From Aureimonas frigidaquae (lineage in GTDB: Bacteria > Pseudomonadota > Alphaproteobacteria > Rhizobiales > Rhizobiaceae), in assembly GCF_001463905.1 (NCBI RefSeq), contig NZ_BBWR01000011.1:62001-126000 (forward strand): DNA of 64,000 bases, read 5' to 3'. Positions 4,021 to 58,316 of this stretch are shown piece by piece (the stretch's first letter is position 1; each line of letters begins with the position of its first letter). The position numbers and the translations under genes are program-made. The notes under the pieces are model-generated. The model ran no database searches. It was not told where the DNA came from and saw nothing but the letters and a program-made list of their open reading frames with translations.

Positions 4021-4220
4021 GCTCGGTATTCCTTTGTTCAAAACCCTGGTCGCGACGCGTGTCGTCGGGGCCGACATGAACGTGCAAAGGTCGCCCCGGG
4101 TTGCGCCACGAGCGGAAATATTTCGTCACGCAGCCAAGGCTTCACCCCGGCGCCGAAATCCGCCACTCTGCGCTATCGACCCCCGCATGGGAGCATCCGG
4201 TGATAAGAAACACGACATGG

Positions 4221-4745: not shown

Positions 4746-4766
4746 GCACCGCCATGCGGGCGGACG

Positions 4767-5736: not shown

Positions 5737-5955
5737 GATGGTCCCGGCGCGCCACTCGTGCGTGGCCGGGGAAGGAGCAAAGCTCCGAGAGGGAATGCGA
5801 CGGGCCGACCCATTCCGGGGGCCTTTATCGCAGCCGACCCCGCGACTGTAGAGCGGTGAGGTTCCGTCCGCCGGCCATGCCGGAAACGCCACTGGACACC
5901 CGTGTCCGGGAAGGCAGGACAGACCCCATGACCCGCGAGCCAGGAGACCTGCCAT
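5737..5955 (+). promoter_or_regulatory. Cobalamin riboswitch
   Basis: Adenosylcobalamin-sensing leader. Conserved blocks appear in order: the 5' GGTCCC segment, GAGAGGGAATGCGAC, the CCGCGACTGTA core near 5840-5850, the CCACTGG loop near 5889, and the B12 box AGCCAGGAGACCTGCC at 5938-5953. A GCGGCA/TGCCGC hairpin (5967-5984) follows before the GGAGG of cbtB and may be part of the expression platform. It should repress the downstream cbtB-cbtA-cobPWNO operon when B12 is plentiful. Confidence 0.95.
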
Positions 5956-6003
5956 CGCTATGAAGAGCGGCAAATCCCTGCCGCTGTCACGGAGGTTGAG
6001 CAC

Positions 6004-6180
6004 ATGACCACGCGGACCGCGTCCCGAACGCCATCCGACACCGCCACCCGATTCGCCACGGGGCTTCTGGCCCTGGCGCTGGGCGGCTTCCTGATCTTCG
6101 GCGCGGGCTTTGCCAGCGCCGACCAGTTGCACGATACCGCGCATGATGCGCGCCATGCGATGGGACTGCCCTGCCACTGA
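6004..6180 (+). CDS. cbtB: CbtB, small cobalt transporter subunit
   Basis: A 58-residue protein. A polar N-terminus is followed by one hydrophobic segment (GLLALALGGFLIFGAGFA) and a His-containing C-terminus ending HDARHAMGLPCH. This is the CbtB family pattern: one membrane helix and a C-terminal histidine motif that probably binds cobalt. GGAGG precedes the ATG. It is the first gene after the riboswitch, 18 bases before cbtA. The pair is a known B12-regulated cobalt uptake candidate in proteobacteria. It is easily missed because of its size. Confidence 0.93.
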   Translation: MTTRTASRTPSDTATRFATGLLALALGGFLIFGAGFASADQLHDTAHDARHAMGLPCH

Positions 6181-6198
6181 GCGGGGGAGCATAGACCC

Positions 6199-6921
6199 AT
6201 GACAATCCGGATCCTTCTTGCGGCGCTTCTCGCCGGAATTCTGGCTGGCCTGGCGATCACGCCGGTCCAGGCCCTTCGCACCACGCCCCTCATCATCGCG
6301 GCGGAAGCCTACGAGGATGGTGGCGCCCCCTCGGCCCACGAGCATGGCGCGCTGAGCCTTGCCACGCCCGCCCTTGCCCATGCGCCGGGCGCCGGCGCGG
6401 ACGCAGGGGGCACGAGCGCCGCCCGCCTTGGCGGCACGGCGCTCGCCAACATCGTGCTCGGCGCGGGCTTCGCGCTTCTGCTCCTCTCAGTCAGCCTTGT
6501 GAGCGGACGGGCCATCACGGCCCGGAACGGGGCCGTCTGGGGCCTTCTCGGCTTTGCCACCCTGACGCTCGCGCCGGCGCTCGGGCTGCCGCCCGAACTC
6601 CCGGCCATGCCGGCCGCCGATCTTGGCGCGCGCCAGCTCTGGTGGCTCATGGCCGTCCTGTGCACGGGCCTTGGCATCGGTGTCCTCACGCTGGCGCGGC
6701 CGGCCGGGCTGCGGGCCGCAGGCGCGGCGCTGATCGTCGTGCCGATGATGATCGCCGCGCCACATCCGGCGGAGCTGGCGAGCCCCATTCCGCCGACGCT
6801 CGCCGCCGAGTTCGCCGTCGCCTCTCTGACGACATCGGCCATCTTCTGGGTCCTGATCGGGGGCCTGACGGGCCTTGCGCTCGAGCGTTTCGGCACGGCC
6901 GGACGGCTGGCCCGGGCGTGA
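6199..6921 (+). CDS. cbtA: CbtA, cobalt transporter membrane subunit
   Basis: A 240-residue membrane protein with about five to six hydrophobic segments. The first helix (LLAALLAGILAGLAITPVQAL) is followed by a loop rich in His and Asp/Glu (YEDGGAPSAHEHGAL), as in CbtA. The region around APALGLPPELPAMPAADLGARQLWW is a family hallmark, and a later AAPHPAELASPIP segment is also typical. It is thought to import cobalt together with CbtB. Its TGA overlaps the GTG of cobP by two bases, so the genes are translationally coupled. Confidence 0.92.
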   Translation: MTIRILLAALLAGILAGLAITPVQALRTTPLIIAAEAYEDGGAPSAHEHGALSLATPALAHAPGAGADAGGTSAARLGGTALANIVLGAGFALLLLSVSLVSGRAITARNGAVWGLLGFATLTLAPALGLPPELPAMPAADLGARQLWWLMAVLCTGLGIGVLTLARPAGLRAAGAALIVVPMMIAAPHPAELASPIPPTLAAEFAVASLTTSAIFWVLIGGLTGLALERFGTAGRLARA

Positions 6922-7433
6922 GGCGTATCGGCCTCGTCCTCGGCGGAGCGCGCTCGGGCAAGAGCGCCTTCGCCGAGCGGCGCATCGTGGCCACCGGCCT
7001 TCCCCGCATCTACCTGGCGACGGGGCAGGCCTTCGACGCCGAGATGGCCGACCGGATCGAGGCCCATCGCACGGCGCGGGGGCCGGACTGGCAAACGGTC
7101 GACGCGCCGCTCGCCCTGCCGGAGGCAATCTGTCGGCACGCGCTGCCCGGGCAGGCCGTGCTGGTGGACTGCCTGACGCTCTGGCTCAGCAATCTCATGC
7201 TGGCGGAGCGGGATATCGGGCACGAGACGCAGGCGCTGTGCCAGGCGCTCGGTGCGGCCGCCGGCCCGGTCACGCTCGTGGCGAGCGAGGTCGGCCTGTC
7301 CATCGTGCCGGACAATGCGCTGGCGCGCGCCTTCCGCGACCATGCCGGCCGCATCAACCAGACCGTCGCGGCGCTGGCCGACGACGTCCATTTCGTCGCG
7401 GCCGGCTTGCCGCTGACACTGAAAGGTTCATGA
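6918..7433 (+). CDS. cobP: Bifunctional adenosylcobinamide kinase / GTP:adenosylcobinamide-phosphate guanylyltransferase
   Basis: CobP (CobU) phosphorylates adenosylcobinamide and then attaches GMP to it, a nucleotide-loop assembly step. The 171-residue length is normal. The P-loop GGARSGKS is at about residues 8-15; YLATGQAFDAEMADRI and VDCLTLWLSNLM are family blocks, and ASEVGLSIVPDNALARAFRD contains the conserved segment around the guanylylation region. The GTG start at 6918 overlaps the stop of cbtA and places the P-loop correctly. An upstream in-frame extension is not part of the family. Confidence 0.95.
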   Translation: MRRIGLVLGGARSGKSAFAERRIVATGLPRIYLATGQAFDAEMADRIEAHRTARGPDWQTVDAPLALPEAICRHALPGQAVLVDCLTLWLSNLMLAERDIGHETQALCQALGAAAGPVTLVASEVGLSIVPDNALARAFRDHAGRINQTVAALADDVHFVAAGLPLTLKGS

Positions 7434-7437: not shown

Positions 7438-8508
7438 ATGCAGACCAAGATTCCCGCCACCGTCATCACCGGCTTCCTCGGCGCCGGCAAGACGACACTC
7501 ATCCGCAACCTCCTGGAATCGGTGGAAGGCCGTCGCATCGCGCTGATCATCAACGAGTTCGGAGATCTGGGCGTGGATGGCGATACGCTGCGCGGCTGCG
7601 GCAGCCAGGCCTGCCGCGAGGAGGATATCGTCGAACTGACCAATGGCTGCATCTGCTGCACCGTCGCCGACGATTTCATCCCCACCATGCAGAAGCTCCT
7701 CGACCGGCCGCAGCCGCCGGATCACATCGTCATCGAAACCTCGGGCCTGGCGCTGCCCCAGCCCCTCGTGGCCGCCTTCAACTGGCCGGACGTCAAGGCG
7801 CGTGTCACCGTCGACGGCGTCGTGACGGTCATCGACACGGCGGCCGTCGCCGCCGGGCGCTTCGCGCAGGACGAGGCGCGGATCGCCGCCGAGCGTGCCA
7901 GGGATGAGAGCCTCGATCACGACAATCCGCTGGAGGAACTGTTCGAGGACCAGATCCGCGCCGCCGACCTCGTCATTCTGAACAAGGCCGATCTCGTCGA
8001 TGCGGCGGCGCTGGATGCGGTGCGCACCGAAGTGCTGGCGCAGGCCGGACGCAATCTGCCCGTGCTGACGGCACGGGACGGCAAGCTGCCGGTCGATGTG
8101 CTGATCGGCATCGGGGCCGGGACCGAAAGCCTGATCGCCGAGCGGCAATCCCATCACGAGCTGCACCATGCCGATGGCCACACGCATGACCACGAGGATT
8201 TCGACAGCTTCCTCCTGACCCTGCCGCCGGCCGCCTCCCGCGAGGCGCTGGAGGCAGCGCTGAAGACGGCGATTGAGCGCCACGATATCCTGCGCCTCAA
8301 GGGGTTCGCCCGTATTGCCGGAAAGCCGATGCGCCTGCAGGTGCAGGCCGTGGGCAGCCGGATCGACAGCTATTTCGACCGGCCGGCCACGCCGCAGGAG
8401 ACGCAGAGCCGGCTGGTCGTGATCGGCCTCCACGACCGGCTCGACGCGGCGGCGCAACGCGACATCGCCGACCTTCTGGCCGGTGCCGCCGACGCGGCGG
8501 CGGCCTGA
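7438..8508 (+). CDS. cobW: CobW, GTP-dependent cobalt chaperone
   Basis: A 356-residue G3E GTPase of the COG0523/CobW group, proposed to deliver cobalt to the CobNST chelatase. Walker A is GFLGAGKTT (about residues 11-19), the metal-binding GCICC is near residue 67, and NKAD gives base specificity near residue 181. A His-rich stretch (HHELHHADGHTHDHED) lies between the GTPase and C-terminal CobW domains. It sits four bases after cobP and directly before cobN, the order expected for a cobalt-insertion function rather than a zinc or nitrile hydratase chaperone. Confidence 0.95.
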   Translation: MQTKIPATVITGFLGAGKTTLIRNLLESVEGRRIALIINEFGDLGVDGDTLRGCGSQACREEDIVELTNGCICCTVADDFIPTMQKLLDRPQPPDHIVIETSGLALPQPLVAAFNWPDVKARVTVDGVVTVIDTAAVAAGRFAQDEARIAAERARDESLDHDNPLEELFEDQIRAADLVILNKADLVDAAALDAVRTEVLAQAGRNLPVLTARDGKLPVDVLIGIGAGTESLIAERQSHHELHHADGHTHDHEDFDSFLLTLPPAASREALEAALKTAIERHDILRLKGFARIAGKPMRLQVQAVGSRIDSYFDRPATPQETQSRLVVIGLHDRLDAAAQRDIADLLAGAADAAAA

Positions 8509-8512
8509 CGGC

Positions 8513-11500
8513 GTGCATCTTCTCCTTGCAGAGAAAGGCCGGATCGCCGATGGCGAGGAAGCGGTGGATCTTGGCCAGTCGCCGGGCGATATCGTCTTCC
8601 TGTCGGCGGCCGACACCGAGCTGAGCGCGCTGGCGGCGGCGGCGCATCGCGCCGGCCTGCCGCCGACGCGGCTGCGGCTGGCCAATCTTCTGCGGCTCGG
8701 CCACCCCATGTCCGTCGACAGTTTCGTGGAGCGGACGCTTTCGGGCGCCCGGCTGGTGGTGGTGCGCCTTCTGGGCGGCATCGGCTACTGGCCCTACGGG
8801 GTGGACGCTCTGAAGGCAGCGGCGCGGCGCTTCGGCTTCGCGCTCGCCTTCCTGCCGGGCGACGAGCGGCCGGACCCATCGCTGGCGGAGGCCGGCACGA
8901 TCGGCGCGGACCGTGCCGACGCGCTCGCCGCCTATCTGACGGAAGGCGGCATCGACAATGCCGGCCTGTTTCTGGACGCCTGCGCCGCCCTGATCGGCGC
9001 GGCGCCGGAGCCGCCCGCCGCCCGCCCGCTCCTGCGCGCCGGGCGGATGGACAGGCCCGGCGTGGCGGCGCCCGATGCGCCCGTCGTGGCCATCGTCTTC
9101 TACCGCGCCCTGATGCAGAGCGGCCAGACCGAGCCGATCGAGGCCCTGGCGGCCGCGCTGGAAGGGCACGGTCTTGCCGCGCTGCCGGTCTTCATTTCCA
9201 GCCTGAAGGATCCCGTCAGCATCGAGACGCTGCGCCACCTGTTCCAGCCCCGCGCGCCCGACGTCGTCCTGAACTGCACAGGCTTTGCCACGTCGCCCGC
9301 CGGCGCCGCGCATGTGCCGACCGTGCTGGACGAAAGCGGAGCCACGGTGCTGCAGGCCGTGCTGGCCGGCACCAGCCAGGAGGCCTGGGCTGCATCGGAC
9401 CGGGGCCTTGGGCCGCGTGATCTGGCAATGAACATCGCTTTGCCCGAGATCGACGGACGGGTCCTCAGCGGCGCGATCTCCTTCAAGGCGGCGGGCCAGT
9501 GGGACGCGCTGACCCAGTGCGATCTCGTCACCCATCGCTCGCATGCGGCCGGCATCGCCTTTGCCGCCGCGCTGGCCGCCCGCTGGGTGCGCTTGCGCAG
9601 ACGCCCGGCGGCAGAGCGGCGTGTCGCCATGCTTCTGGCCAACTATCCCAACCGCGACGGGCGGGTGGCCAACGGCGTCGGGCTGGACACGCCGGCCGCC
9701 GCGCTCGCCGTCCTCAACGCCTTGGTCGGGGCCGGTTATACGCTGGCGGACCTGCCCGCGGACGGCAATGCGCTCATTGCGCAGCTTCTGGCCGGGCCGA
9801 CCAATGCCGGCCATGGTGGACGGACCATCCGACACAGCCTCTCACTCGACGATTACCGCGCCGTCTTCGACAGCCTTCCAGAGGCGATCCGCAGCGCCGT
9901 CACGGCGCGCTGGGGGCCGCCGGAAGCGGACCCCTTCGTCGTTGCGGGCAAGGGCTTCGCCCTTCCCTTCCTGCAGTTCGGCAACGTGATCGTCGGCATC
10001 CAGCCGGCGCGCGGATACAATATCGACCCCAAGGAAAGCTATCACGCGCCGGACCTGCCGCCCCCGCACAACTACATCGCGGCCTATGCGCATATCCGAC
10101 GGACGTTCGATGCCGATGCCGTCATTCACATGGGCAAGCACGGCAACCTCGAATGGCTGCCGGGCAAGGCCCTGGCGCTGTCGCAGGACTGCTTCCCGCA
10201 GGGGCTCCTCGGGCCCATGCCGCATCTCTACCCCTTCATCGTCAACGATCCGGGCGAAGGCACGCAGGCCAAGCGGCGCAACGCCGCCGTCATCATCGAC
10301 CATCTGACCCCACCGCTGACGCGCGCCGACAGCTACGGCGTGTTGCGCGAACTCGAAGACCTGGTGGACGAGTTCTACGAGGCGCAGCTCGGCGACAGGC
10401 GGCGCATCGCCGCCCTGCGGCCCCGCATCCTGCAACTGGCCGCCGATAGCGGCCTTGCGGTCGATGCCGGCATTGCGGCAGCCGACGCGCCGGATGCGGC
10501 GCTGGACAAGCTGGACGCCTACCTGTGCGAATTGAAGGAAATGCAGATCCGCGACGGACTGCACATTTTCGGCACGCCGCCGTCGGGCCGCCTGGCCGAC
10601 GATCTCCTGGCCGCCATCACCCGCCTGCCGCGCGGCACGCGGGCAGAGGACGCCTCGCTCCTGCGGGCGCTCTGCCAGGACCTCGGCCTGCCCGCTGCGT
10701 TCGATCCGCTCGCACCCGCCATGAGCGCGCCGTGGAACGGGCCTTATCCACAGCTTCTGCAGGATGTGTCCACAGCGCTCTGGCGCAGCCATGGCGATAC
10801 GGTGGAGCGGTTGGAACTCCTGGCATCGCGCCTACTGGCAGGTCAGGACCGGGCGCGGCTGCCCGATGGCGCGGCCATGGCCGTGCTGGCGCATGTGGAC
10901 AGGGTGCTGCGCCCGGCTGTGGACAGGTGTGGACAGGCGGAAATGGCCGGGCTCCTGGCCGGCCTGTCCGGCCGCTTCGTCGCGCCCGGCCCCTCCGGCG
11001 CCCCGTCACGCGGGCGGCCGGACGTCCTGCCCACCGGTCGCAACTTCTATTCGGTGGACACACGCGCCGTGCCGACCGAGACGGCGTGGGCGCTCGGGCG
11101 CAAATCCGCAGAGGCCCTCGTCATGCGGCATCTGCAGGATCATGGCGACTGGCTGCGCGTCGTGGGGCTGTCTGTGTGGGGCACCGCCAATATGCGCACC
11201 GGCGGCGACGACATCGCCCAGGCTCTGGCGCTGATCGGCGTGCGGCCGCTCTGGGAAGGCGGGGGACGGCGCGTCACCGGCTTCGAAATCATTCCGCAGG
11301 CCGCGCTGGGGCGGCCGCGGGTGGATGTCACCTTGCGCATATCGGGCTTCTTCCGGGATGCCTTCCCCGAGCAGATCGCCCTGTTCGATGCCGCGGTCCG
11401 CGCGGTCGGCGCGCTGGACGAGGATGCAGCGGACAATCCCATCGCCGCGCGGATGCAGGAGGAAGCGGCCGCACTGATCGCCGCCGGACTGGCCCCGGAG

Positions 11501-46775: not shown

Positions 46776-47075
46776 CTATTTCGGGCACCCGTTGCGATAG
46801 GGGATCCAGCATCGTCCGGTCTTGTAGGCGCAGAGATGGTCGATCACCACCACGGCGGCGATCGCCAGCGTCATGCCGGCGATGGCGATGACACCCGTCC
46901 AGTCCGGAAAAGCCTTGGCGAAGGGTCCGATGATGCCGATCGCCACGACGCAGAAAGCCGCGACCTCCCCCAGGCCGAACAGGATGTAAATCCACAGGCT
47001 CGGCGTCTTTTTTCCAGCAAAGGCACGCAGGCCGCCGCTTGCGCGACCGGACCGGCGGGGCAGCGTCACGGGCAT
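46776..47075 (-). CDS. Small membrane protein, function unknown
   Basis: A 99-residue protein with two hydrophobic segments (IYILFGLGEVAAFCVVAIGIIG and VIAIAGMTLAIAAVVVIDHL), a basic N-terminus and a short Cys-containing tail (YKTGRCWIPYRNGCPK). I do not recognise the family. Its start overlaps the stop of the next gene upstream by ten bases, so the two are coupled. Confidence 0.6.
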   Translation of the reverse strand: MPVTLPRRSGRASGGLRAFAGKKTPSLWIYILFGLGEVAAFCVVAIGIIGPFAKAFPDWTGVIAIAGMTLAIAAVVVIDHLCAYKTGRCWIPYRNGCPK

Positions 47076-47722
47076 CCCTCTTCGAACCGCTCCACCTGGA
47101 TGCCGTCGTGCAAGGAAATGGTGGCGGCCTTGCGCTCGCGCGCCCCGGCCGGGTTGTCGCAGCCGTCGTAATAGACCTCCGTCACGCTTTCCACGATGCG
47201 CGCCCCGCCGTCTGCCAGGAGAGCCGCCACATCGAGCGACATGGACGTCTGGCCCATATTCATGAAGCTCGTCTCCAGGAAGACCTCGTCCAGCCCATCG
47301 CCATCCGTATCGGCTGCGGCCACGAGGCGCTGATACTGGACACCGTCCGGCAGGACATGGATGCCGGCCGCGTCCGTGCCGCGCATCACCACCAGAAGCG
47401 GAGGCGGCGCGTCGGGAAAGGGGTCGATGGCGACGGCCGCTTCCGCCTGGACCAGGTAGACGCGCTCCTGCGCACCGGCTGTCGAAAAGGATCCGGCCGC
47501 ATCGCCGCGCAGGACGAAATCATCCGCCAACCGCTTGGCCGCATTGCCGGGCGCGGCGGCCAGCGCCGCCTTGATCATGCGGCTGTCGGCGGCGGAATAG
47601 TATGGACTGCCCGCCAGGAAGGCCGCGTCCCGATAATCGAGCAGGGTCTCGTCGGCCCGCGCCGGCAGGATGCCGAGCGCGAGCGCGGCAGCCAGGATAA
47701 GCTTGGATGTCCTTGGGTTCAT
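47066..47722 (-). CDS. Secreted protein of unknown function
   Basis: A 218-residue protein with a signal peptide (LILAAALALGILPARA). The body is Ala/Asp-rich and contains DTDGDGLDEVFLETSF, which resembles calcium-binding EF-hand or FG-GAP sequence. The C-terminus has two cysteines (YDGCDNP and FEEGCP). No family is recognised; a periplasmic or outer-surface role is likely. Confidence 0.65.
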   Translation of the reverse strand: MNPRTSKLILAAALALGILPARADETLLDYRDAAFLAGSPYYSAADSRMIKAALAAAPGNAAKRLADDFVLRGDAAGSFSTAGAQERVYLVQAEAAVAIDPFPDAPPPLLVVMRGTDAAGIHVLPDGVQYQRLVAAADTDGDGLDEVFLETSFMNMGQTSMSLDVAALLADGGARIVESVTEVYYDGCDNPAGARERKAATISLHDGIQVERFEEGCP

Positions 47723-47817: not shown

Positions 47818-48321
47818 TTATTCGACCGTGACACGGCCGAGATAGCCGCGCGCCCATTGGCCGTCGGCCGGTGCAACGAAGTTGCGCATGGTGATCTGCA
47901 CCACGCCCAGATCGCGGCCGAGATCGAGGACGCGCACGAAAACCGTTTCCATGCGGTCGGTCGCCGGATGGCGCGGGCAGTCGATCCGCAGCCCCGATGC
48001 CGTCCCCATGGGAACCGGCGTGACATTGCTGTTCGGGCAGGACGCCGCATAGCGCTCGCGGAAAGCTGCCAGGAAATCGCCCGGCGGCACGTCTCCCATG
48101 TCCGGAGCGGTCTGGAGCGTGACCATGCGGCTGAAGGTCTGCACGGTTTCACCGGCGGGTATCAGCTCGACCAGAACGGAGCGGCCGGCCTGTTCCTGAT
48201 GTCCCACCACCAGCCCGGCTTCCGCGGGAAGCGAAACGCGCTTGTCCGCCGTATCGGCCTGCGCCCATGCACCTCCACAGAACGCCAGGCCGGCAAGCGC
48301 TGCGCACACGACAGTCTTCAT
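47818..48321 (-). CDS. Secreted protein of unknown function
   Basis: A 167-residue protein with a signal peptide (KTVVCAALAGLAFCGGAWAQ). The mature part has VVGHQEQAGRSVLVELIPAGETVQTF, paired Cys (AASCPNSN and IDCPRH) and an ITMRNF segment. This pattern of a lipid- or pilus-type periplasmic domain is not assigned to a family I know. It is divergent from the Zur-regulated aztC. Confidence 0.65.
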   Translation of the reverse strand: MKTVVCAALAGLAFCGGAWAQADTADKRVSLPAEAGLVVGHQEQAGRSVLVELIPAGETVQTFSRMVTLQTAPDMGDVPPGDFLAAFRERYAASCPNSNVTPVPMGTASGLRIDCPRHPATDRMETVFVRVLDLGRDLGVVQITMRNFVAPADGQWARGYLGRVTVE

Positions 48322-48662
48322 ACGCCGAACCTCCCTTTCGCCAGATGTTCCGACGAAAATGTGTAGAAACCGGGGCACGCTCCGGTTGCACCCGACGAGA
48401 CGTTCGGACGGCAGTGTCTTGCCCATCACGCAGGCTGTACCGTCACTGCGCTGAGGCCTGATACACACTACTCGCTTAAACTCGGAATTGCTTTCACGTG
48501 CCGACGCGTTTATTTTGACGCGCAGCGGCGAAGGACGGCTTGCACATCCGAACAACGTTATGTAATAACATAACACGACCAGAACAGAGCGTTCGGGTCG
48601 CGGAAGGACGTTGCACGCCGGTGCCGCGCCAGCCGCGCCATGCCCCACACGCGGATCAGGAC
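48322..48662. other. 341-base divergent intergenic region upstream of aztC
   Basis: Holds the promoters of the unknown secreted protein (minus strand) and of aztC (plus strand). It contains the Zur box at 48557-48574. The 48465-48520 part includes TTGACGCG and is moderately AT-rich; I cannot place -10 elements with confidence. No gene-like ORF fits here. Confidence 0.5.
48557..48574 (+). promoter_or_regulatory. Zur box upstream of aztC
   Basis: GTTATGT and ACATAAC form perfect seven-base arms around AATA, close to the alphaproteobacterial Zur operator (TGTTAT...ATAACA). It lies 89 bases before the aztC start and predicts repression by zinc-loaded Zur. The zinc-binding products of the two following genes agree. 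Confidence 0.85.
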
Positions 48663-49610
48663 ATGTTTGCCACAATGCTGTCCCGGAACCTTCCCTGCAC
48701 CGTCGCCACGATCGCGCTTCTGTCGACCGCTAGCGCCCCGGCCCATGCCGAGCCGCTGCGGGTGGTGGCGAGTTTCTCCATCATCGGCGATTTCGCGGCG
48801 AAGGTGGGCGGCGACCGCATCGCGCTGACGACGCTGGTCGGGCCCAATGGCGATGCGCATGCCTATGAGCCGCGCCCCACCGATGCCCGGGCTCTGGCGG
48901 AGGCCGATGTCGTCCTGACCAACGGCCTGGAACTGGAAGGATTCATGGACCGGCTCATCACCGCCAGCGGGAGCCGCGCGCCGATCGTACCGCTGACGCA
49001 GGGCATCGACACGCTGGAGGAGCCCGGCGGCGGGCACTACCACTTCGTCAATGGTGAGGCCATCTTCCATGTCGGGGCGCTGAACGCCCATGCCTGGCAG
49101 TCCGTGCCCAACGCCCAGCGATACATTGCCAATACAAGGGACGCTTTCTGCGCGGCCGATGCGCAAGGCTGCCCTATCTATACGGCCAATGCAGCGTCCT
49201 ACCGGGACGCGCTCGATGCGCTGGACCGGGATATCCGCGCCGCGGTCTCCGCACTCCCGCCGGGCCGGCGAACCGTCGTCGTTGGGCACAGTGCCTTCGG
49301 CTATTTCGAACAGGCCTATGGCGTCACATTCCTGTCGCCGCAGGGCGTTTCCACGGCATCGGAGGCCTCCGCCGCAGATTTAGCCGGCCTCATCGAAGCG
49401 ATGCGCAAGGCGGATGCCAAGGCCATCTTCGCCGAAAACATCAGCGATCCGCGCCTCGTTTCGCAAATCGCGGCCGAGGTCGGCACGCAGCTTTCCGGCA
49501 CCCTCTATTCCGACGCCCTGTCGGAGCCGGACGGCCCGGCGCCCGACTATATCGCCATGATGCGACACAATCTGAACGCTCTCAGCGCGGCACTGACCGC
49601 GGCTGATTGA
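48663..49610 (+). CDS. aztC: Zinc ABC transporter binding protein AztC (ZnuA-like)
   Basis: A 315-residue cluster A-I metal-binding protein. The signal peptide (ATIALLSTASAPAHA) is followed by VVASFSIIGDFAAKVGGDRI. Zinc ligands are predicted in GDAHAYEPRPTD (His), LNAHAWQS (His), VGHSAFGYF (His) and YSDALSEPDG (Asp); His/His/His/Asp is the AztC pattern. The His-rich loop is short (GGGHYHF). The ATG at 48663 follows AGGA. No AztA or AztB gene is adjacent. It probably receives zinc from the following AztD-ZinT protein. Confidence 0.9.
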   Translation: MFATMLSRNLPCTVATIALLSTASAPAHAEPLRVVASFSIIGDFAAKVGGDRIALTTLVGPNGDAHAYEPRPTDARALAEADVVLTNGLELEGFMDRLITASGSRAPIVPLTQGIDTLEEPGGGHYHFVNGEAIFHVGALNAHAWQSVPNAQRYIANTRDAFCAADAQGCPIYTANAASYRDALDALDRDIRAAVSALPPGRRTVVVGHSAFGYFEQAYGVTFLSPQGVSTASEASAADLAGLIEAMRKADAKAIFAENISDPRLVSQIAAEVGTQLSGTLYSDALSEPDGPAPDYIAMMRHNLNALSAALTAAD

Positions 49611-49654
49611 GCGCCGCCCCACCCCCTTCCACCAGCATTTTCAAGGATACAATC

Positions 49655-51475
49655 ATGCTGCGATCACTGCGCTGCGCGACAGCGCTCGTCTCCCTTTTGT
49701 CCGCCGGGGCCATGGCCCATGCCAACGACCACGCCGATTCCGGCGAGGACGTAACCCATTACCGCATCTTCGTGGCCGACCATGCGGAGCCGCGCATCAC
49801 GGCCATCGACCTTGCGCAACCGGATCGGCGCTGGAGTTTCGACACCAGGGGTCAAGCCAGGCTCTATGCCGTCGGCGGCGGCTCGGCCATCGCCGCCGTC
49901 CAGTCCGACGACGATATCGTACAGTTCCTGTCCAGCGGCATCACGCTGCAGAGCCATGGCGACCATGCCGATATCGAGATTGCCGACCCGGCCGCCTTGC
50001 CGGACACGCTCGAAGGCCCGCGGCCCTTCCATCTGATCGATCATGACGGGACGCTCTCCATCAACTTCGATCGTGGGGGCTATGCGCAGATCCTGGACAC
50101 GCATGCGCTGACCAAGAGCCCGCTATCATCGTGGCGGCTGCCGGTCGAGCGCGCCCATCATGGCTATGTCGCCCCGATCGGCCAGGCCTGGGTCGCCAGC
50201 GTTGCCTCCGACGCGCCCACATCGGGCGACGAGGCGCCCAAGCGCATCGGCCTGCGCGCCGTCCATCGCGACGGCGCGCCGGCCGGCGCGGTGGAGACAT
50301 GCACCGGCATTCATGGCGAGGCCTTCTCCGGCGCCTATCTGGCGACCGGTTGCCAGGAGGGCATCCTGACCGTCACCGCAGGTGAGGCGGGACCGGTCTT
50401 CCAGATGCTGGACTATCCGTCGGATATCCCTGCCAGGGAGACCACCGGAACGCTCCTCGGCTCGACCGGCATGCAGGTGTTTCTGGGCAATTACGGCGCC
50501 AAGGGCCTCGTCGTCATCGATCCGGTGGACGCGCCGCATCTGCGCCATGTCGAGCTGCCCTTCCGCCGCGTCGATTTCACGCTCGATCCGGCCAATGCGC
50601 GCTTCGCCTATGTTTTGACCGAGGACGGGACGCTGCACCGGCTCGACCTTCTCGACGCGAAGCTGATGGCGAGCGCGCGGGTGAGCGAACCCTATTCGAT
50701 GGACGGCCACTGGAACGATCCGCGCCCGCGCCTGGCCATGGCGGGCGACGAAGTCCTGTTGAGCGACCCGAGGGCGGGCCTGATCCGGCGCATCGACAAG
50801 GCGGCGCTGAACGAGACCGGAACCATCGCCGTGGACGGCATGCCCTACGCCATCGCGGTTGCCGGCGGCAGCGGCGTCGTGCACGACCACGACCACGACC
50901 ACGACCATGATCACGCGGGCCATGCGCACAGCCATGGCGACCCGCAGATCTACAAGGGCTATTTCGAGGATGCGCAGATCAAGGACCGCCCCCTGTCCGA
51001 CTATGCGGGCGACTGGCAATCCGTCTATCCCTATCTGCAGGACGGCTCGCTCGATCCGGTCTTTGCGCACAAGGCCGCCAGCGGCACGATGAGCGCGCAG
51101 GAATATCGTGACGAGTATGAGATCGGCTACCGCACGGATGTCGAGCGGATCACCATCAACGGCGACCGTGTCACCTTCTTCCGGAACGGCAGCCCGGTGG
51201 CCGGGACCTATACCTATGACGGCCGCGAGACGCTGACCTACAAGAAGGGCAATCGCGGTGTCCGCTTCATCTTCGCCAAGACGGGCGGCGATGAGGCGGC
51301 CCCGGACTTCATCCAGTTCAGCGATCACAAGATCGCGCCGGAGAAGACGGACCATTTCCATCTTTACTGGGGTGATGATCGCGCGGCCCTTCTGGAGGAA
51401 GTCACCAACTGGCCGACCTACTACCCTTCCGCGCTCGATGCGAATGCGATCGTCGAAGAAATGATGGCGCATTGA
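49655..51475 (+). CDS. aztD: AztD-ZinT fusion: periplasmic zinc metallochaperone
   Basis: A 606-residue protein. The signal peptide (LRSLRCATALVSLLSAGAMAHA) is followed by a beta-propeller of the AztD family (about residues 25-405: HYRIFVADHAEPRITAIDL and repeated WDxG-like strands, His in GIHGEAFSG and ERAHHGY). A His-rich linker (HDH repeats then GHAHSHG, 410-429) leads to a C-terminal ZinT/YodA domain (435-606: LSDYAGDWQSVYPYLQDGSLDPVF, TYKKGNRGVRF, FSDHKIAPEKTDHFH, NWPTYYPSALD and EEMMAH). AztD hands zinc to AztC, and ZinT scavenges periplasmic zinc; here both are one chain. SD AAGGA precedes ATG 49655. It is 44 bases after aztC, in the same transcript. Confidence 0.93.
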   Translation: MLRSLRCATALVSLLSAGAMAHANDHADSGEDVTHYRIFVADHAEPRITAIDLAQPDRRWSFDTRGQARLYAVGGGSAIAAVQSDDDIVQFLSSGITLQSHGDHADIEIADPAALPDTLEGPRPFHLIDHDGTLSINFDRGGYAQILDTHALTKSPLSSWRLPVERAHHGYVAPIGQAWVASVASDAPTSGDEAPKRIGLRAVHRDGAPAGAVETCTGIHGEAFSGAYLATGCQEGILTVTAGEAGPVFQMLDYPSDIPARETTGTLLGSTGMQVFLGNYGAKGLVVIDPVDAPHLRHVELPFRRVDFTLDPANARFAYVLTEDGTLHRLDLLDAKLMASARVSEPYSMDGHWNDPRPRLAMAGDEVLLSDPRAGLIRRIDKAALNETGTIAVDGMPYAIAVAGGSGVVHDHDHDHDHDHAGHAHSHGDPQIYKGYFEDAQIKDRPLSDYAGDWQSVYPYLQDGSLDPVFAHKAASGTMSAQEYRDEYEIGYRTDVERITINGDRVTFFRNGSPVAGTYTYDGRETLTYKKGNRGVRFIFAKTGGDEAAPDFIQFSDHKIAPEKTDHFHLYWGDDRAALLEEVTNWPTYYPSALDANAIVEEMMAH

Positions 51476-51540
51476 GGCAAAGCCACCTCGCGTCATGAAC
51501 GGGCTGCTGGCCAAGCGCCGGGAAGGCCCGCATAAAGAGC

Positions 51541-51567
51541 AGGACCGCGCCGGGGGGGCGCGGTCCT
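51541..51567 (+). terminator. Perfect 11-bp hairpin after aztD
   Basis: AGGACCGCGCC (51541-51551) pairs fully with GGCGCGGTCCT (51557-51567) around GGGGG. No T run follows, but the stability is very high. Placed 65 bases past the aztD stop and 21 bases before the SDR start, it probably ends the zinc transcript or protects its 3' end. Confidence 0.7.
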
Positions 51568-51588
51568 GCATCGGGAGGATAGCGGACC

Positions 51589-52362
51589 ATGAGCGACGCG
51601 GCGCCACGGGTGGATCTCGATTTCTCGCTGGCGGGCAAGGTCGCCATCGTCACGGGCGGTGGCTCGGGCATCGGCGCGGCCATCGCCACCGCCTTCGCAG
51701 CCAAGGGCGCGTCGGTCGCCATCTTCGACATCGCGCTTGCGGGCGCCGAGGCCAGGGCTGCGGAGATCGGCGGCGCGGCACGCGCCTTTGCCTGCGACGT
51801 GAGCGACGCGGCCTCTGTCCAAACCGCCGTGACCGCCGCGCATGACGCCTTCGGCCGCATCGACATCCTCGTCAACAGCGCCGGGATTGTCGCCCTGGCG
51901 CCGGCGGAAAGCCTGTCGATCGACGCTTTCGACCGCACCATCGCCATCAATCTGAAGGGTACGTTCCTTGTCTCGCAGGCTGTCGGACGGTTGATGATCG
52001 CCGCCGGCGGCGGCGGCCGGATCGTGAACCTCGCCTCGCAGGCGGGCACGGTGGCGATCGAGGAACATGCCGCCTACTGCGCCTCGAAGTTCGGCGTCAT
52101 CGGGCTGACCAAGACGCTGGCGGCCGAGTGGGGGCGCCACGGGATCCGGGCCAACACCCTGTCCCCGACCATCGTCCTGACCGATCTCGGCCGGGCGGCC
52201 TGGGCGGGTGAAAAGGGCGAGGCCGCCCGCAAGCGCATCCCCGCCGGGCGCTTCGCCTACCCCGAAGACATCGCCGCCGCGGCGGTCTTCCTGGCGTCGA
52301 GCGGGGCGGAGATGATCAACGGGGCCGACCTGTTGATCGATGGCGGCTACACCATTCTCTGA
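51589..52362 (+). CDS. SDR family oxidoreductase, GolD/D-threitol dehydrogenase-like
   Basis: A 257-residue classical SDR. GGGSGIG is at about residues 23-29, DI after beta-2 (NAD), NSAGIV, NLASQAGTVAIEEHAAYCASKFG and IPAGRFAYPEDI. The block TLSPTIVLTDLGRAAWAGEKGE closely matches GolD-type threitol/arabitol dehydrogenases, so a polyol substrate is likely. GGAGGA precedes the ATG. Apparently a single-gene unit behind the hairpin. Confidence 0.85.
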   Translation: MSDAAPRVDLDFSLAGKVAIVTGGGSGIGAAIATAFAAKGASVAIFDIALAGAEARAAEIGGAARAFACDVSDAASVQTAVTAAHDAFGRIDILVNSAGIVALAPAESLSIDAFDRTIAINLKGTFLVSQAVGRLMIAAGGGGRIVNLASQAGTVAIEEHAAYCASKFGVIGLTKTLAAEWGRHGIRANTLSPTIVLTDLGRAAWAGEKGEAARKRIPAGRFAYPEDIAAAAVFLASSGAEMINGADLLIDGGYTIL

Positions 52363-53177: not shown

Positions 53178-54005
53178 TCAGGCCGGGAAGGCCAGGAGGC
53201 GGCCGGCCGGGCCATGCGCCACCACGTCCATCTCCACGCCATAGATGCGCCGCAGCTCGGGCGGCGTCATGATGTCGGCCGGCGCGCCGCGTGCGATCAG
53301 CCGGCCGCCCTTGAGCGCCAGGATCTCATCGCAGAAGCGCGCGGCCATGTTCACATCGTGCAGGACGACGATCACGCCAATGCCACGCTCGGCCGACAGG
53401 CGCTGCACCAGCGACAGGACCTCGATCTGATGCGCCACGTCGAGCGCCGAGATCGGTTCGTCGAGCAGCAGGCACTCGGCATTCTGCGCCACCAGCATGG
53501 CGAGCCAGGCGCGCTGCCGCTCGCCGCCGGAAAGCGTATCGACATGCCGGTCGGCGAAGCCGCCAATGTCGGTCAGGGCGATGGCCTCGTCCACCATGGC
53601 GCGGTCCTGCGGGCCGAAGCGGCCGAGCGCCCCGTGCCATGGGTAGCGGCCGAGCGCCACGAGTTCGCGCACCAGCATGCCCGTCGCTGCCGGGGTATAT
53701 TGCGGCAGATAGGCGACCTTGCGGGCGAATTCGCGCTCCCCCCAGGCATCGAGGCGCCGCCCCTCGAAGGCGATCTCCCCGCTCGTCGGCGGCTCCTGCC
53801 GCGCCAGCATCTTGAGAAGCGTCGACTTGCCGGAGCCGTTATGGCCGATCAGTCCGATCACGCGGCCGGCCGGCAGGGTCAGGTTCAGCGGCGCGACGAG
53901 GTCCCGCCCGGGAACCGCATAGCGGGCCGCCGTCAGCGTGTAGAGCGCCGTGGCCGGTGCCAGCCCGCAATCCGGGACGTCGGGCGAAAGTGCCATGTGG
54001 CTCAT
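53178..54005 (-). CDS. fhuC: Ferric-siderophore ABC transporter ATPase (FhuC-like)
   Basis: A 275-residue ATPase with Walker A GHNGSGKST, YLPQYTPAATGMLVRELVALGRYPWHGALGRF, signature LSGGERQRAWLAML and Walker B LLLDEPISALD. This arrangement is typical of FhuC/FepC-type siderophore importers. It is the last gene of fhuD-fhuB-fhuC, 27 bases after fhuB. Confidence 0.93.
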   Translation of the reverse strand: MSHMALSPDVPDCGLAPATALYTLTAARYAVPGRDLVAPLNLTLPAGRVIGLIGHNGSGKSTLLKMLARQEPPTSGEIAFEGRRLDAWGEREFARKVAYLPQYTPAATGMLVRELVALGRYPWHGALGRFGPQDRAMVDEAIALTDIGGFADRHVDTLSGGERQRAWLAMLVAQNAECLLLDEPISALDVAHQIEVLSLVQRLSAERGIGVIVVLHDVNMAARFCDEILALKGGRLIARGAPADIMTPPELRRIYGVEMDVVAHGPAGRLLAFPA

Positions 54006-54032
54006 CGGGCCGGTATCCTCTTATGGTTCGTG

Positions 54033-56024
54033 TCAACGTTCGGCATGGGTCCCCGCCCGCTGCAAAAGAATGAGCAGGAACGGCCCGCCGACAAGGCAGG
54101 CCACCAGCCCGGTCGGCAGCTGGAACGGGAAGGCCACTATTCGGGCCACCCAGTCCGCCACGACCATGATGATGCCGCCTGCCAGGGCTGCGCGTAAGAG
54201 CATGGTGCCCTGCCCGGCCGGACCCGCCAGCCTGGTCACGAGATGCGGGGCCATCAACCCGACGAAGCTGACCGTGCCGGCCACCGGGACCGCGAGCGCC
54301 GCGGCCAGAGCGGCCACGCATAGGAGCGCCGCACGCGCCCCTTGCAACGGGACGCCGAGGGCTTGCGCCGCCGCCCCGCCAAGCGGCAGAAGCATCAGCC
54401 AGCGCCGCATTGCAAGGCCGGCGGCACAGATGGCCGCCAGCGCCAGGAACAGGTTCAGCACCGTATCGTAGGATGCAGCCGACGCGGTTCCGCCGATCAG
54501 CCGCAAGAGCTGGAAGCCGCGCGGATCGCCGCTCGCCGTCAGGACGCCGATCATCGCATCGGCCAGGGCATTGATGGCGATGCCCGACAGGAGCACCCGT
54601 TCGGGCGAAAAGCCGGATCGGCGCGCGAGGCCCAGGACCAGCGCCACCGTGACCACGCCGCCCAGAATGCCGAGCCCCGCCATGCCGACGCCGCCCGCAA
54701 GGCCGGCCACCAGGAGCCCCGCCGCCATGGCGATGAGCGCGCCGGCACCGACACCCAGGATTTCAGGGCTGGCCATGTCATTGCCGCTGACGCGCTGCAG
54801 GATCGCCCCGGCCGCGCCCAGGAGGCCACCGGCCGCGAAGGCGGCCAGCATGCGCGGAACGCGCCAGGGCGCAAGCTCCGCCCATTGCGACGGCGCGGCC
54901 AGGCTGAAGGCGCCGCCTGGCAGGCGCCCGACCACCAGCGTCAGCGCCATCAGGGCGACGGCCAGCGCAAGAAGGGCCGGCACCCCGCCGGGAAGGCGGC
55001 GCACCGCGCGCAATGCGACATGGCCGGCCGGCGGCACACGCCGGTGCAGGTTCAGCCGGGGCAGCAGCCACAGGAGCAGGGGCGAGCCGAGCACCGCCGT
55101 CACCGCGCCGGTCGGTACGAAGGCGGCCATGCCGCCCGCCGCCCATTGCACGCCAAGATCGGTCAGGACCAGGAGACCCGCCCCGGTCAGCGCCGACCAG
55201 ACGAGCCGCTGCAGGGGCGTCGTCGCGCCGGCGGCCCGCGCCAGGAGTGGAGCCACCAGCCCGATAAAGCCGAACACGCCCACCGCGCTCGTCACGAAGG
55301 CCGCGGGCAGTAGCCCCGCAAAGATCGCGGCGAGCCGCCAACGGGCCACCTTCAGGCCCAGGCCCTTCGCGCTCGCATCGCCCAGTTCGATCAGCCGCAG
55401 CGGGCGCATCAACGGCGCCAGGATCGCCGCGCAGATCAGGAGCCGGCCGCTCAGGGCGGCGACGGGCGCCCAACCCTGGACGCTGAGCGACCCCGAGCCC
55501 CAGATGAACAACCCTTCCAGGTAACGCTGATGCGTCAGCTGAAGGATTCCGGCCAGAGCCGCGCAGAGAAGGCTCAGCATGAGCCCGGCCAGCACCAGCG
55601 GCACCGGCGAGAAACCCTGCCGGCGCGTCAGTCCGAGCACGGCCAGCATGGCCATGGCGGAGCCGCAGAGCGCCGCCACGTCGCGGCCCCAGCCCAGGAG
55701 GCCTGGGGTGAAGACCAGCGCCGCGGCGATGGCCAGGCGCGCCCCGCCATCCGTGCCGAGCGTGGTTGGAGAGGCCAGCGGATTGCGCAGCGCCATCTGC
55801 ATGACCGCGCCCGAGGCGCCGAGCCCGGCCCCGACCAGGAGCGCCAGGACCAGCCGCGGCAGGGTCGCGTGCAGGAAGACGAGCCGCTCCACGTCGTAGG
55901 CATCGCTCGCAGGCTGCAACAGGTCGCGCATCGGATGCCAGAATTGCAGGAGCGCGCACAGGGCCGATGCCGCGAGAAGGCCCAGGACGAGTTGTGGGGG
56001 CGATACGGCCGGACGCAGCGTCAC
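54033..56024 (-). CDS. fhuB: Fused ferric-siderophore permease (FhuB-like)
   Basis: A 663-residue protein of two tandem FecCD-type permease halves, each with about nine to ten helices. The first half has AVMQMALRNPLASPTTLGTDGGARL and the second AILQRVSGNDMASPEILGVGAGALI, the G-x-x-x-Q...NPLA-like signature. Fusion of both halves is the hallmark of FhuB. Its ATG overlaps the fhuD stop. Confidence 0.93.
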   Translation of the reverse strand: MTLRPAVSPPQLVLGLLAASALCALLQFWHPMRDLLQPASDAYDVERLVFLHATLPRLVLALLVGAGLGASGAVMQMALRNPLASPTTLGTDGGARLAIAAALVFTPGLLGWGRDVAALCGSAMAMLAVLGLTRRQGFSPVPLVLAGLMLSLLCAALAGILQLTHQRYLEGLFIWGSGSLSVQGWAPVAALSGRLLICAAILAPLMRPLRLIELGDASAKGLGLKVARWRLAAIFAGLLPAAFVTSAVGVFGFIGLVAPLLARAAGATTPLQRLVWSALTGAGLLVLTDLGVQWAAGGMAAFVPTGAVTAVLGSPLLLWLLPRLNLHRRVPPAGHVALRAVRRLPGGVPALLALAVALMALTLVVGRLPGGAFSLAAPSQWAELAPWRVPRMLAAFAAGGLLGAAGAILQRVSGNDMASPEILGVGAGALIAMAAGLLVAGLAGGVGMAGLGILGGVVTVALVLGLARRSGFSPERVLLSGIAINALADAMIGVLTASGDPRGFQLLRLIGGTASAASYDTVLNLFLALAAICAAGLAMRRWLMLLPLGGAAAQALGVPLQGARAALLCVAALAAALAVPVAGTVSFVGLMAPHLVTRLAGPAGQGTMLLRAALAGGIIMVVADWVARIVAFPFQLPTGLVACLVGGPFLLILLQRAGTHAER

Positions 56025-56938
56025 GATGCCGCCTCCGGCACGGCCGTCAGAAGCGCCTCTCCGAAACGCTGCGCCGCGACGAGGCTGCCGAACATCAGGA
56101 CCGATGGCAGGCGGCGCACCGGGCGGTGGCGCACCGCCGGCAGAGCCTGCCAGAGGGTCGACTGGCGGATCGCCTCCCAGGCGTCCTCCTGGACGTTCTC
56201 CAGAAGGAAAATCTGCGCAGGGCCCACCTCGGACAGACGCTCGATGCCAACCGTCTCGAACCCCCAGAAACCGCCATCCCCCGTCCAGGCATTGACGAGG
56301 CCCAGCTTGCGCATGGCCGAATCCAAGAGCCCGACCGGCGCATAGACGCGCACATGCCGGTTATCCATAAGGCTGAGGACGAGGAGCGGCGTCTGCGCAT
56401 AGGGTGCAAGCGCGGCGCGTCCGGCCTGCCAGAAGGCATCCGTCCGCGCGAGCAGGGCGCGGGCCTGCGCTTCGCGCCCCGTCAGCGCGCCGAGCCGCAG
56501 GGTCGCCCCCCGCGCGGCATCGATCGGAACGAGCCCGGGCGCGTAGAGCGTGATGCGCTCGACCGGTGCGATGCGGGACAGCTGCGGCTCGACGCCGGAC
56601 GTGTAATCCGTCGTCAGGATCAGGTCCGGTTTCAGGCTGGCGACGACTTCCAGATTGGGGTCGAGGCTCGCACCGATATCCACCGTTGCCGGCGGCAGGG
56701 GCGGCGCCACCACCCATTCCGCCCAGCCCGGCACATCCCCCAGCCCGACGGGCGGATGGTCGAGCGCGATGAGCGTTTCGGCCAGGGCGTAATCGGTGGA
56801 GACGATCCGCAACGGGAGATCGGCCCGCGCGCCGCGCGGCGCAAAGGCGGCCGTGGCTGCCGCCGCAAGGCCAAGGACTGACCGACGCGTGAGCGGCGGC
56901 AACCGGAACGGATCGGGGCTGGATGATAGACGGTGCAT
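56021..56938 (-). CDS. fhuD: Ferric-siderophore periplasmic binding protein (FhuD-like)
   Basis: About 305 residues. The N-terminus has a twin-arginine motif (TRRSVLGLAAAA), so export is probably Tat-dependent, as in known FhuD. A class III binding fold follows with RIVSTDYALAETLIALDHPPVGLGDVPG, PNLEVVASLKPDLILTTD and GGFWGFETVGIERL (hydroxamate type likely). The ATG at 56938 is used; ATG 56974 would include an inverted repeat. First gene of the operon. Confidence 0.88.
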   Translation of the reverse strand: MHRLSSSPDPFRLPPLTRRSVLGLAAAATAAFAPRGARADLPLRIVSTDYALAETLIALDHPPVGLGDVPGWAEWVVAPPLPPATVDIGASLDPNLEVVASLKPDLILTTDYTSGVEPQLSRIAPVERITLYAPGLVPIDAARGATLRLGALTGREAQARALLARTDAFWQAGRAALAPYAQTPLLVLSLMDNRHVRVYAPVGLLDSAMRKLGLVNAWTGDGGFWGFETVGIERLSEVGPAQIFLLENVQEDAWEAIRQSTLWQALPAVRHRPVRRLPSVLMFGSLVAAQRFGEALLTAVPEAAS

Positions 56939-56948
56939 GAACACGAAA

Positions 56949-56961
56949 TCTTGAGCCAAGA
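56949..56961. promoter_or_regulatory. Possible operator upstream of fhuD
   Basis: TCTTG and CAAGA arms around AGC form a short inverted repeat just before the preferred fhuD start. It could be an iron-regulator site, but it does not match a Fur or RirA consensus clearly. Low confidence. Confidence 0.25.
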
Positions 56962-57023
56962 GTTCATGTTTCATAGTGGCGGTGCCGGCCGCTGTCCAGC
57001 GCACCGGCGCGCCGGGCGCCGCC

Positions 57024-58316
57024 TCAGCCGCCGTGCAGCTTGAGCGGCGGCCCTGCCGTGGGGGAGATGAGGTCGGCCAGGATGGCGACCGATCCGCGCA
57101 GCGGGCCGAGGACACGCCACTGGTGCTGGCGCTGCAGCGCGTCATAGGCGGCGGCGGCGAACTGGCCGTGGATCAGGATGTCGTCGCGCCGCCGCAGCCC
57201 GATCATGCCCACCGCGCCGGCCCCGGCCAGCGAAACGAGCCGCCCCTTGTTGCGGAAGGTGAAGTCCTCCACGGGAGCGTTGACCATGACGCGCGGCAGC
57301 GCCTGCGCCAGATATTGCGCCTGCTGGCTGGCAGCCTGCGCGGTCGGCGGAAGCGGTGCGTCCGCGCCTTCGGGCGTGCAGGCGGCCGAATCGCCCATGA
57401 CATAGACGGCATCGTCCGTGGTCGAGCGCAGATGCGTATCGACGAGGATACGCCCCTTCTTATCGAGCTTGAACGCGCCGAGCCGGGCAAGGATCGGGTT
57501 GCCGATTAGCCCGGCCGCCCAGACGGTGATGTCGGACGGCCAGGATTCGCCGGTCGCGGTGCGGATCTCCTGCACGTCGATCCGGGTGATCTTGGCATCC
57601 GTCACGACCTTGATGTCCAGCGCGCGCAGGCGCTCCAAGAGCTTGTCACGCAGCGCCGGCTCGGCCCCCGGCATGAGTTCGGGCGCCGCTTCCAGGATGG
57701 TGAGGTTCAACAGCTTCGGGCTGTCGCCGGGGGCGTTCTGGCTCCAGTCGAAGAAGGCGCGTTCGGAATGGCGCAGATGCGCCGCCAGCTCCGTCCCCGT
57801 CGCGCCGGAGCCGATGATGACGATATCGGCCGGCACGCCTGTCGACCGGGCCCGGATCATGTGGCGGATGAAGCGCTGGCGGAAGGCTTCGGCGTCCCCC
57901 TGCCCGTCCAGCCGCACGGCATGTTCGGCCACGCCCGTCGTGTTGAAATCCGGCGTGACGCCACCGAGCGCGACGACGCAGTAATCATAGGTCAGGAGGC
58001 GCTCGGGCGTGACCACCGCCCCGCGCTCGTCGCGCATGGGGGCGAGCCGCACCGCCTTCATGGCATGCTCGATCCCCACGACCTCGCCCTGTTCGAAGCG
58101 GAAGCCGCGGAGCTGGCCCAGAATGTAGAAGCTGATCTCGGCCAGCGACGAGGACACCGTCCCGGCTGCGAATTCATGCAGCCGGGGCTTCCAGAGATGC
58201 GAGGTGACACGGTCGATCAGCGTCACGTCGATGTCGCGCCGGCCGGCCAATTGGGCGGCCAGTTCCAGCCCACCGGAGCCACCGCCCAGAATGAGGATAC
58301 GCGTCTTGCGTGACAC
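57024..58316 (-). CDS. ndh: Type II NADH dehydrogenase (NDH-2)
   Basis: A 430-residue single-chain flavoprotein that oxidises NADH and reduces quinone without pumping protons. The FAD loop GGGSGGLE is at about residues 11-18, ALGGVTPDFNTTG follows, the NADH loop GSGATGTELA is near 168-177, and VYVMGDSAA and TAQAASQQAQYLA are the C-terminal FAD-binding blocks. The C-terminal end is amphipathic for membrane attachment. The GTG at 58316 follows AGGGAG. It lies downstream of a DUF3096 peptide gene in the same direction. Confidence 0.92.
   Translation of the reverse strand: MSRKTRILILGGGSGGLELAAQLAGRRDIDVTLIDRVTSHLWKPRLHEFAAGTVSSSLAEISFYILGQLRGFRFEQGEVVGIEHAMKAVRLAPMRDERGAVVTPERLLTYDYCVVALGGVTPDFNTTGVAEHAVRLDGQGDAEAFRQRFIRHMIRARSTGVPADIVIIGSGATGTELAAHLRHSERAFFDWSQNAPGDSPKLLNLTILEAAPELMPGAEPALRDKLLERLRALDIKVVTDAKITRIDVQEIRTATGESWPSDITVWAAGLIGNPILARLGAFKLDKKGRILVDTHLRSTTDDAVYVMGDSAACTPEGADAPLPPTAQAASQQAQYLAQALPRVMVNAPVEDFTFRNKGRLVSLAGAGAVGMIGLRRRDDILIHGQFAAAAYDALQRQHQWRVLGPLRGSVAILADLISPTAGPPLKLHGG

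Follow-up and report, generated by a model that had tools for sequence, protein, structure and literature searches.

Direct hand-over of zinc outside the cytoplasm is known for few protein pairs (PMC6689063, PMC7858048). In the AztD/AztC pair, zinc reaches AztC exclusively from site 2 of AztD, and the C-terminal His408 of the P. denitrificans protein (PdAztD) is a ligand of that site; a storage role has been suggested for site 1 (PMC6689063). Transfer requires a loop of AztC, which a docking model of the P. denitrificans proteins puts in the AztD channel (PMC6689063), and the N-terminal His-rich motif of PdAztD is apparently not involved in passing zinc to AztC (PMC7463823). ZinT is thought to deliver zinc to a binding protein (PMC7858048), and how it passes zinc on is still unclear (PMC6689063, PMC7858048). 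In AdcA, where ZinT is joined to a ZnuA-like binding protein, growth of an adcAII-null background with restricted zinc did not change significantly when either the ZinT domain or the His-rich loop alone was lost; the authors nonetheless conclude that both aid uptake (PMC7858048).

The window (the whole 64-kb stretch of DNA that was analysed) holds a gene in which an AztD-type propeller, a His/Asp-rich linker and a complete ZinT domain are read in one frame, as the original prediction had proposed:

49655..51475, forward strand: aztD-zinT fusion gene, ATG to TGA without an internal stop, 606 residues; the aztC stop lies 44 bp upstream
49655..49723, forward strand: probable signal peptide, about residues 1-23, from sequence and alignment with PdAztD
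49727..50884, forward strand: AztD-type beta-propeller, residues 25-410, by profile, phmmer and AlphaFold2/Foldseek
50948..51472, forward strand: ZinT domain, residues 432-606, by PF09223

By profiles and phmmer, the borders first given for propeller, linker and ZinT domain (residues 25-405, 410-429 and 435-606) are off by no more than a few residues. Residues 40-405 match the whole AztD model NF038015.2 in an NCBIfam scan (356.4 bits, E 1.3e-106), and since this score lies below the curated cut-off of 400 bits, we call the domain AztD-type. The proposed profile check of the ZinT assignment bears it out, with Pfam PF09223 covering residues 431-606 at profile positions 4-181 of 181 (265.5 bits against a cut-off of 27). 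The equivalog for E. coli-type ZinT, NF007639, scores 206.8 bits, below its curated cut-off of 300, and the AdcA model NF033605 is matched only at positions 331-517 of 517 (241 bits against 700), the ZnuA-like binding-protein domain that stands before ZinT in AdcA being absent. Against PDB chains, phmmer aligns PdAztD (6ck1) to residues 1-410 with 568 bits, and the stretch from residues 398-433 to the end is matched by S. pneumoniae AdcA, in its ZinT domain, and by the ZinT proteins of E. coli and Salmonella. An AlphaFold2 model built from 39 fusion sequences has high confidence for both the propeller and the ZinT domain; model residues 387-411, which correspond to 411-435 of the protein, have a pLDDT below 50 and are predicted to be disordered, and with a pTM of 0.65 the output gives no readable placement of one domain relative to the other. 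The modelled fold is that of the AztD propeller, which Foldseek superposes on 6ck1 with a TM-score of 0.98 of the target and 62% identity; the ZinT domain matches 1oej, 6lm2 and 7jja at 50-52% identity, and the Foldseek rows for E. coli and Salmonella ZinT give 45-50%. Both halves are under purifying selection, with dN/dS values of 0.08-0.22 for AztD and 0.07-0.18 for ZinT in 10 hand-chosen fusion pairs.

With the AztD proteins of P. denitrificans (6ck1) and Citrobacter koseri (6cmk, 6n01) the fusion shares the propeller fold, site 1, site 2 and the disulfide Cys pair. However, PdAztD stops at the site-2 His, C. koseri AztD ends in a short His-rich tail, and neither carries ZinT. The lipocalin-like domain and its three His ligands are those of ZinT/YodA of E. 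coli and Salmonella, which are free-standing, whereas here ZinT is the C-terminal domain of an AztD. AdcA of streptococci and enterococci is similar in having a C-terminal ZinT module in a zinc protein, ZinT ligands of the same spacing and a His-rich element at the interface, but there ZinT is coupled to the transporter's own binding protein instead of a chaperone, a loop of that binding protein forms the His-rich element, and a linker of 11 residues joins the two domains (PMC7858048). The suspicion that such a fusion had not been described agrees with our searches of the open PMC literature, which gave no description of an AztD-ZinT fusion, although the supplement of a 577-sequence AztD survey (PMC6689063) could mention one; it does not hold for the databases, whose records already contain such proteins under the name AztD or ZinT. 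The fusion is also a warning that a gene annotated as zinT or aztD, in rhizobia and related bacteria, may carry both functions.

The zinc ligands and the joint between the halves are located as follows, a fusion residue being the PdAztD residue plus 2 in the phmmer alignment:

49955..49972, forward strand: first part of site 2, H101, H104 and D106, by alignment to PdAztD
50030..50314, forward strand: site 1 ligands H126, H169 and H220, with codons at 50030, 50159 and 50312, each in 46 of 46 fusions
50882..50884, forward strand: H410, fourth site-2 ligand, equivalent to the C-terminal His408 of PdAztD, in 46 of 46 fusions; the linker starts after it
50885..50947, forward strand: linker DHDHDHDHDHAGHAHSHGDPQ, residues 411-431, His/Asp-rich and predicted to be disordered
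51326..51361, forward strand: ZinT zinc ligands H558, H567 and H569, in 46 of 46 fusions, spaced as His452/461/463 of AdcA (PMC7858048)

All ligands of site 1, site 2 and ZinT, together with the disulfide Cys pair, are kept in the 46 aligned fusions (H104 and D106 in 46/46), save H101, which is found in 45 of 46; in the exception, locus L025, the alignment shows a gap of three residues at this position. The linker begins directly after the transfer-site His, a more specific position than the original prediction could state and one at which a linker could matter. In 50 of 50 fusion loci, a count in which the pair L022/L136 with identical AztD halves enters twice, the motif G[GA][ST]GxxH is followed immediately by the linker and then by ZinT. 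If the join has recurred at a single residue, this would be an argument for the importance of the position. Linker length ranges from 9 to 39 residues (median 18) in these loci, and there is thus no fixed geometry; His, Asp or Glu make up 55% on average. Exactly at the site-2 His, 20 of 34 solo AztD frames stop, and others continue into tails that are short or rich in His; before the domain, most of the solo ZinT proteins looked at have a His-rich stretch. Because some solo AztD ends and most of these solo ZinT starts are His-rich, the linker looks like the merged tails of two parents. The coding sequence at 50882-50915 consists of 5.7 copies of CACGAC, a repeat in which slippage could alter linker length.

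Upstream of the fusion lies a gene for an AztC-type protein, preceded by a palindrome, and a hairpin follows the fusion downstream:

48557..48574, no strand: Zur-box-like palindrome GTTATGTAATAACATAAC, 88 bp from its end to the aztC ATG
48663..49610, forward strand: aztC-type zinc-binding protein gene, ATG at 48663 and TGA at 49610, scanned from 48666
49026..49043, forward strand: GGGHYH of the AztC flexible loop, from sequence; counterpart of the P. denitrificans loop docked into the AztD channel (PMC6689063)
51539..51569, no strand: 13-pair hairpin between the fusion gene and an SDR gene, possible operon end

The AztC-type protein scores 341.3 bits with the AztC model NF040870, below the cut-off of 350, and 273.6 bits with ZnuA PF01297. 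The palindrome GTTATGTAATAACATAAC at 48557 is perfect and is the sole match at up to 3 mismatches in the window, with the pattern being taken from this site, which is its own reverse complement, and not from a published matrix. A match at up to 3 mismatches is found in 25 of 46 fusion loci, within 1.1-1.6 kb upstream of the mature start, and in none of 230 shuffled or 46 coding stretches. A simple scan of 48400-51620 gave no sigma-70-type promoter specific to the fusion. The hairpin, possibly the end of the operon, is one of four terminator-like sites versus a mean of 1.5 in shuffles, and its T-run is on the reverse strand only. Two genes for small proteins with apparent signal peptides, as judged by eye, lie at 47066-47722 and about 47818-48306 on the reverse strand, divergent from aztC across the Zur-box-like site; the product of the first has no NCBIfam match and that of the second no Pfam match.

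Between 41655 and 58000 there is no AztB match at E<=1e-8 and no convincing aztA, the best matches being two ABC ATPases with 75 and 107 bits; an AztABCD operon, with aztA and aztB beside aztC and aztD, is not found in this interval. The genome contains six ABC-3 permease matches, none of them on the contig of the window, and that contig carries no aztB. Azt-like A, B and C genes are found in one place in this genome, contig 15, with sub-cut-off scores of 217.7 of 220, 260.8 of 280 and 312 of 350 bits, respectively, and the AztC-like protein encoded there has a long His-rich loop in place of GGGHYH. At E<=1e-45 the genome has no ZnuA (best 7.6e-24). Contig 7 carries an operon that, by eye, resembles a manganese ABC importer.

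Full-length fusions are present in 11 of the 21 genomes of the same genus; four more have AztD alone and six have no match. There is a single match (E<=0.001) in each of the 11, which therefore have no separate AztD or ZinT. The survey of relatives that had been suggested for this architecture also gave at least 29 of 394 genomes in the family draw, in at least 15 genera, with two further genomes matching only from residue 232 or 295 onward, and at least 8 of 397 in the order draw, plus a shortened copy in G193; these counts are lower bounds, as at most three candidates per genome were scored in the large draws. Among the candidates scored in the class (385) and phylum (398) draws, the fusion is found in its own genome only. 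An assembly or annotation artefact, which would have joined two genes, is ruled out because independent genomes of genus, family and order carry query residues 1-606 in one stop-free frame. Holders include Stappia indica SBBC 49 and Rhizobium sp. Leaf262, and Jiella pacifica is matched only from residue 232. Plasmid copies occur in Rhizobium sp. Q54, Phyllobacterium, Mesorhizobium, Devosia and Sinorhizobium meliloti, those of Devosia and Mesorhizobium spanning more than one frame and those of S. meliloti matching only from residue 70.

Several copies are altered. L123, the shortened copy in G193 (6001-7272, reverse strand), lacks roughly 180-190 propeller residues in frame and keeps ZinT and the linker, and L025, on a plasmid of S. 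meliloti SM11 (8001-9581), is a truncated fusion matched only from residue 70. In G377 (L042/L239; 2941-3666 of L239), a ZinT gene follows an apparent remnant of the AztD C-terminus with the rest of the propeller absent, and is perhaps a decayed fusion.

In the 42 fusion genomes, at thresholds chosen after the lists were seen (AztC, E<=1e-55; ZnuA, E<=1e-45), AztC-type proteins are found in 29 and ZnuA-type proteins in 24: 18 genomes have AztC only, 13 ZnuA only, 11 both and none neither. This complementarity is weak evidence, because any genome would be expected to need some zinc importer. AztC was also counted, without ZnuA, in 42 solo-AztD genomes hand-picked from the genus, order and family lists, and is found in 25 of them versus 29 of the 42 fusion genomes; AztC absence therefore does not set the fusion apart, and the idea that it marks the fusion is rejected. 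In G1121 and G1284, both of one genus, a znuA-type gene ends about 100 bp before the fusion; it scores 256 and 279 bits in the two genomes, against a cut-off of 268. In G1471, aztA, aztB and aztC are reduced to a row of short remnants directly before an intact fusion (L241, about 4102-6421), the operon having collapsed around the fusion gene, and G1383 has an aztC remnant before its fusion; by these remnants, the fusion has outlived its neighbours in both genomes.

The AztD halves of the fusions fall into separate groups with solo relatives between them, and well-supported branches of the tree force at least eight changes; at least four are forced in the tree of the ZinT half. One ancestral fusion with simple descent is rejected for the AztD half by AU tests, in which placing all fusions in one clade gives a p-AU of 5e-7 with 54 rows and about 3e-36 with 92 rows, and placing the 19 fusions outside the main AztD clade in one clade gives p 8e-53. 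For the ZinT half, a single clade is not rejected with 67 rows (p 0.161) and weakly rejected with 92 rows (p 0.0155). The main group as then used is not rejected with 67 rows (p 0.223). With 92 rows, the 30 fusions of the main AztD group, a group defined after the AztD tree was seen, are rejected as one ZinT clade (p 0.0014); 3 of these 30 rows, L023, L087 and L123, are outside the 92-row AztD tree, L023 having been placed by the first tree and the others by identity. The ZinT tree has a poorly resolved backbone and a bootstrap that did not settle, and its evidence is weaker than that for the AztD half. The 54-row tree was built after dropping L101, L103 and L104, which have very long branches, and L023 and L026, which span more than one frame; the 92-row AztD tree leaves out these five and all pieces of 250 residues or fewer, including L087 and L123, and the 92-row ZinT tree leaves out L077. 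In addition, 23 loci were omitted that duplicate a stretch present under a different id.

Because the propeller halves do not form one clade and the history of ZinT departs from that of AztD, the AztD-ZinT join was probably made or reshuffled several times. The simplest readings of these trees are that fusion happened repeatedly, that fusions exchanged halves, or both; ZinT loss in some lines, or horizontal transfer, may also be involved and would look like repeated fusion here. A broader proposal, which we offer tentatively and consider rather doubtful, is that evolution has used ZinT as a portable zinc-capturing module, adding it several times to different AztD lineages, and swapping it, each time at the transfer-site His; the result would be an intramolecular relay that can feed either AztC or ZnuA.

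For the protein itself we lean, with modest conviction, towards a periplasmic zinc scavenger-chaperone in which ZinT is joined to AztD at the site of zinc hand-over. Zinc scarcity would lift Zur repression at the Zur-box-like site, and aztC and the fusion would be made together. The open three-His site of ZinT and the flexible His/Asp linker would raise the capture of scarce zinc, and zinc could then move from ZinT or the linker onto site 2 of the propeller; the linker extends from H410, the fourth ligand of this site. As shown for relatives in published work, site 2 would pass zinc to the GGGHYH-loop side of AztC, which in turn would feed an AztAB-type transporter. In hosts that lack AztC, the ZinT half would probably act for ZnuA instead; the ZnuA match in all 13 AztC-less fusion genomes, the znuA-type gene before the fusion in G1121 and G1284 and the azt remnants in G1471 speak for this. 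A scavenger that loads its own hand-over site would be the simplest outcome of placing ZinT and a His tether on a site-2 ligand. Caution is due for the relay from ZinT to site 2, because the N-terminal His motif of PdAztD apparently takes no part in transfer (PMC7463823), a result that speaks against His-rich tails as relays; in the literature searched we found no experiment on zinc movement from ZinT to AztD. The complete domains and ligands, the linker at the site-2 His and its predicted disorder, the adjacent aztC, the Zur-box-like site upstream, the absence of separate AztD or ZinT in the genus and the AdcA precedent count in favour of a scavenger-chaperone, and the variable linker length, the pTM of 0.65, the unchanged growth after single losses in AdcA, the similar share of AztC-less genomes among solo-AztD holders and the sub-cut-off AztD and AztC scores count against it. 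With ZinT on a ligand of the AztD transfer site, the question of hand-over becomes testable within one chain.

In the original prediction, the fusion, its domains and a linker placed where it could matter are supported; passage of zinc from ZinT through the linker to the propeller would be a further, putative step. Service to AztC is probably not all that the fusion does, because some fusion genomes have only AztC-type and others only ZnuA-type proteins, and the protein is one of a larger group. The same division of genomes agrees with a two-acceptor adaptor that has no internal relay, in which each half would work on its own, AztD with AztC as acceptor and ZinT with ZnuA or a binding protein that has a His loop, and joining would only ensure equal amounts and one export event. 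Its own genome, with an AztC and a second, His-loop AztC-like protein on contig 15, and the znuA-type neighbours in G1121 and G1284 also fit such an adaptor. However, the fusions of AztC-only genomes keep all ZinT ligands without a ZnuA at E<=1e-45, and AztC is missing about as often from solo-AztD genomes; we regard the adaptor as possible and on the improbable side.

A still less probable reading is that of a periplasmic zinc buffer, in which both halves and the linker simply act as a store that gives up its zinc by dissociation and gains capacity through the fusion. That only site 2 passes zinc to AztC, with storage suggested for site 1 (PMC6689063), and that the N-terminal His-rich motif has no part in transfer (PMC7463823) would suit a buffer, but the site-2 ligands and the starting point of the linker are kept, seemingly beyond what storage needs, and aztC genes with a G[GD]?GHYH-type loop still adjoin many fusions. 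A neutral accident, the loss of a stop between neighbouring aztD and zinT leaving two independently working parts, could yield the linker by read-through, because His-rich tails sit at the ends of some solo AztD and most solo ZinT proteins looked at that would meet, and G1368 indeed has both halves side by side in different frames. It is nevertheless hard to reconcile with fusions in several separate AztD lineages with the same joint residue and in at least 15 genera of one family, and we give it very little credence. The scavenger-chaperone remains the reading that we prefer.

Other genes are found near the fusion in this genome and elsewhere. At 53178-57145 on the reverse strand of the window, an ABC ATPase, a double-length permease and a binding protein have, by eye, the look of an iron-siderophore uptake operon. 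A ZigA-type gene directly follows the fusion in L025, L026, L126, L240 and L242, by annotation in L026 and L126 and by similarity in the others. The fusion of Rhizobium sp. Q54 (L022, LR606148.1, 8001-9833) is on a plasmid typed as conjugative; about 2.3-6.3 kb downstream of it are genes whose annotations read chloramphenicol efflux and beta-lactamases. Genome G1356 has an AztD half identical to the one in this fusion.
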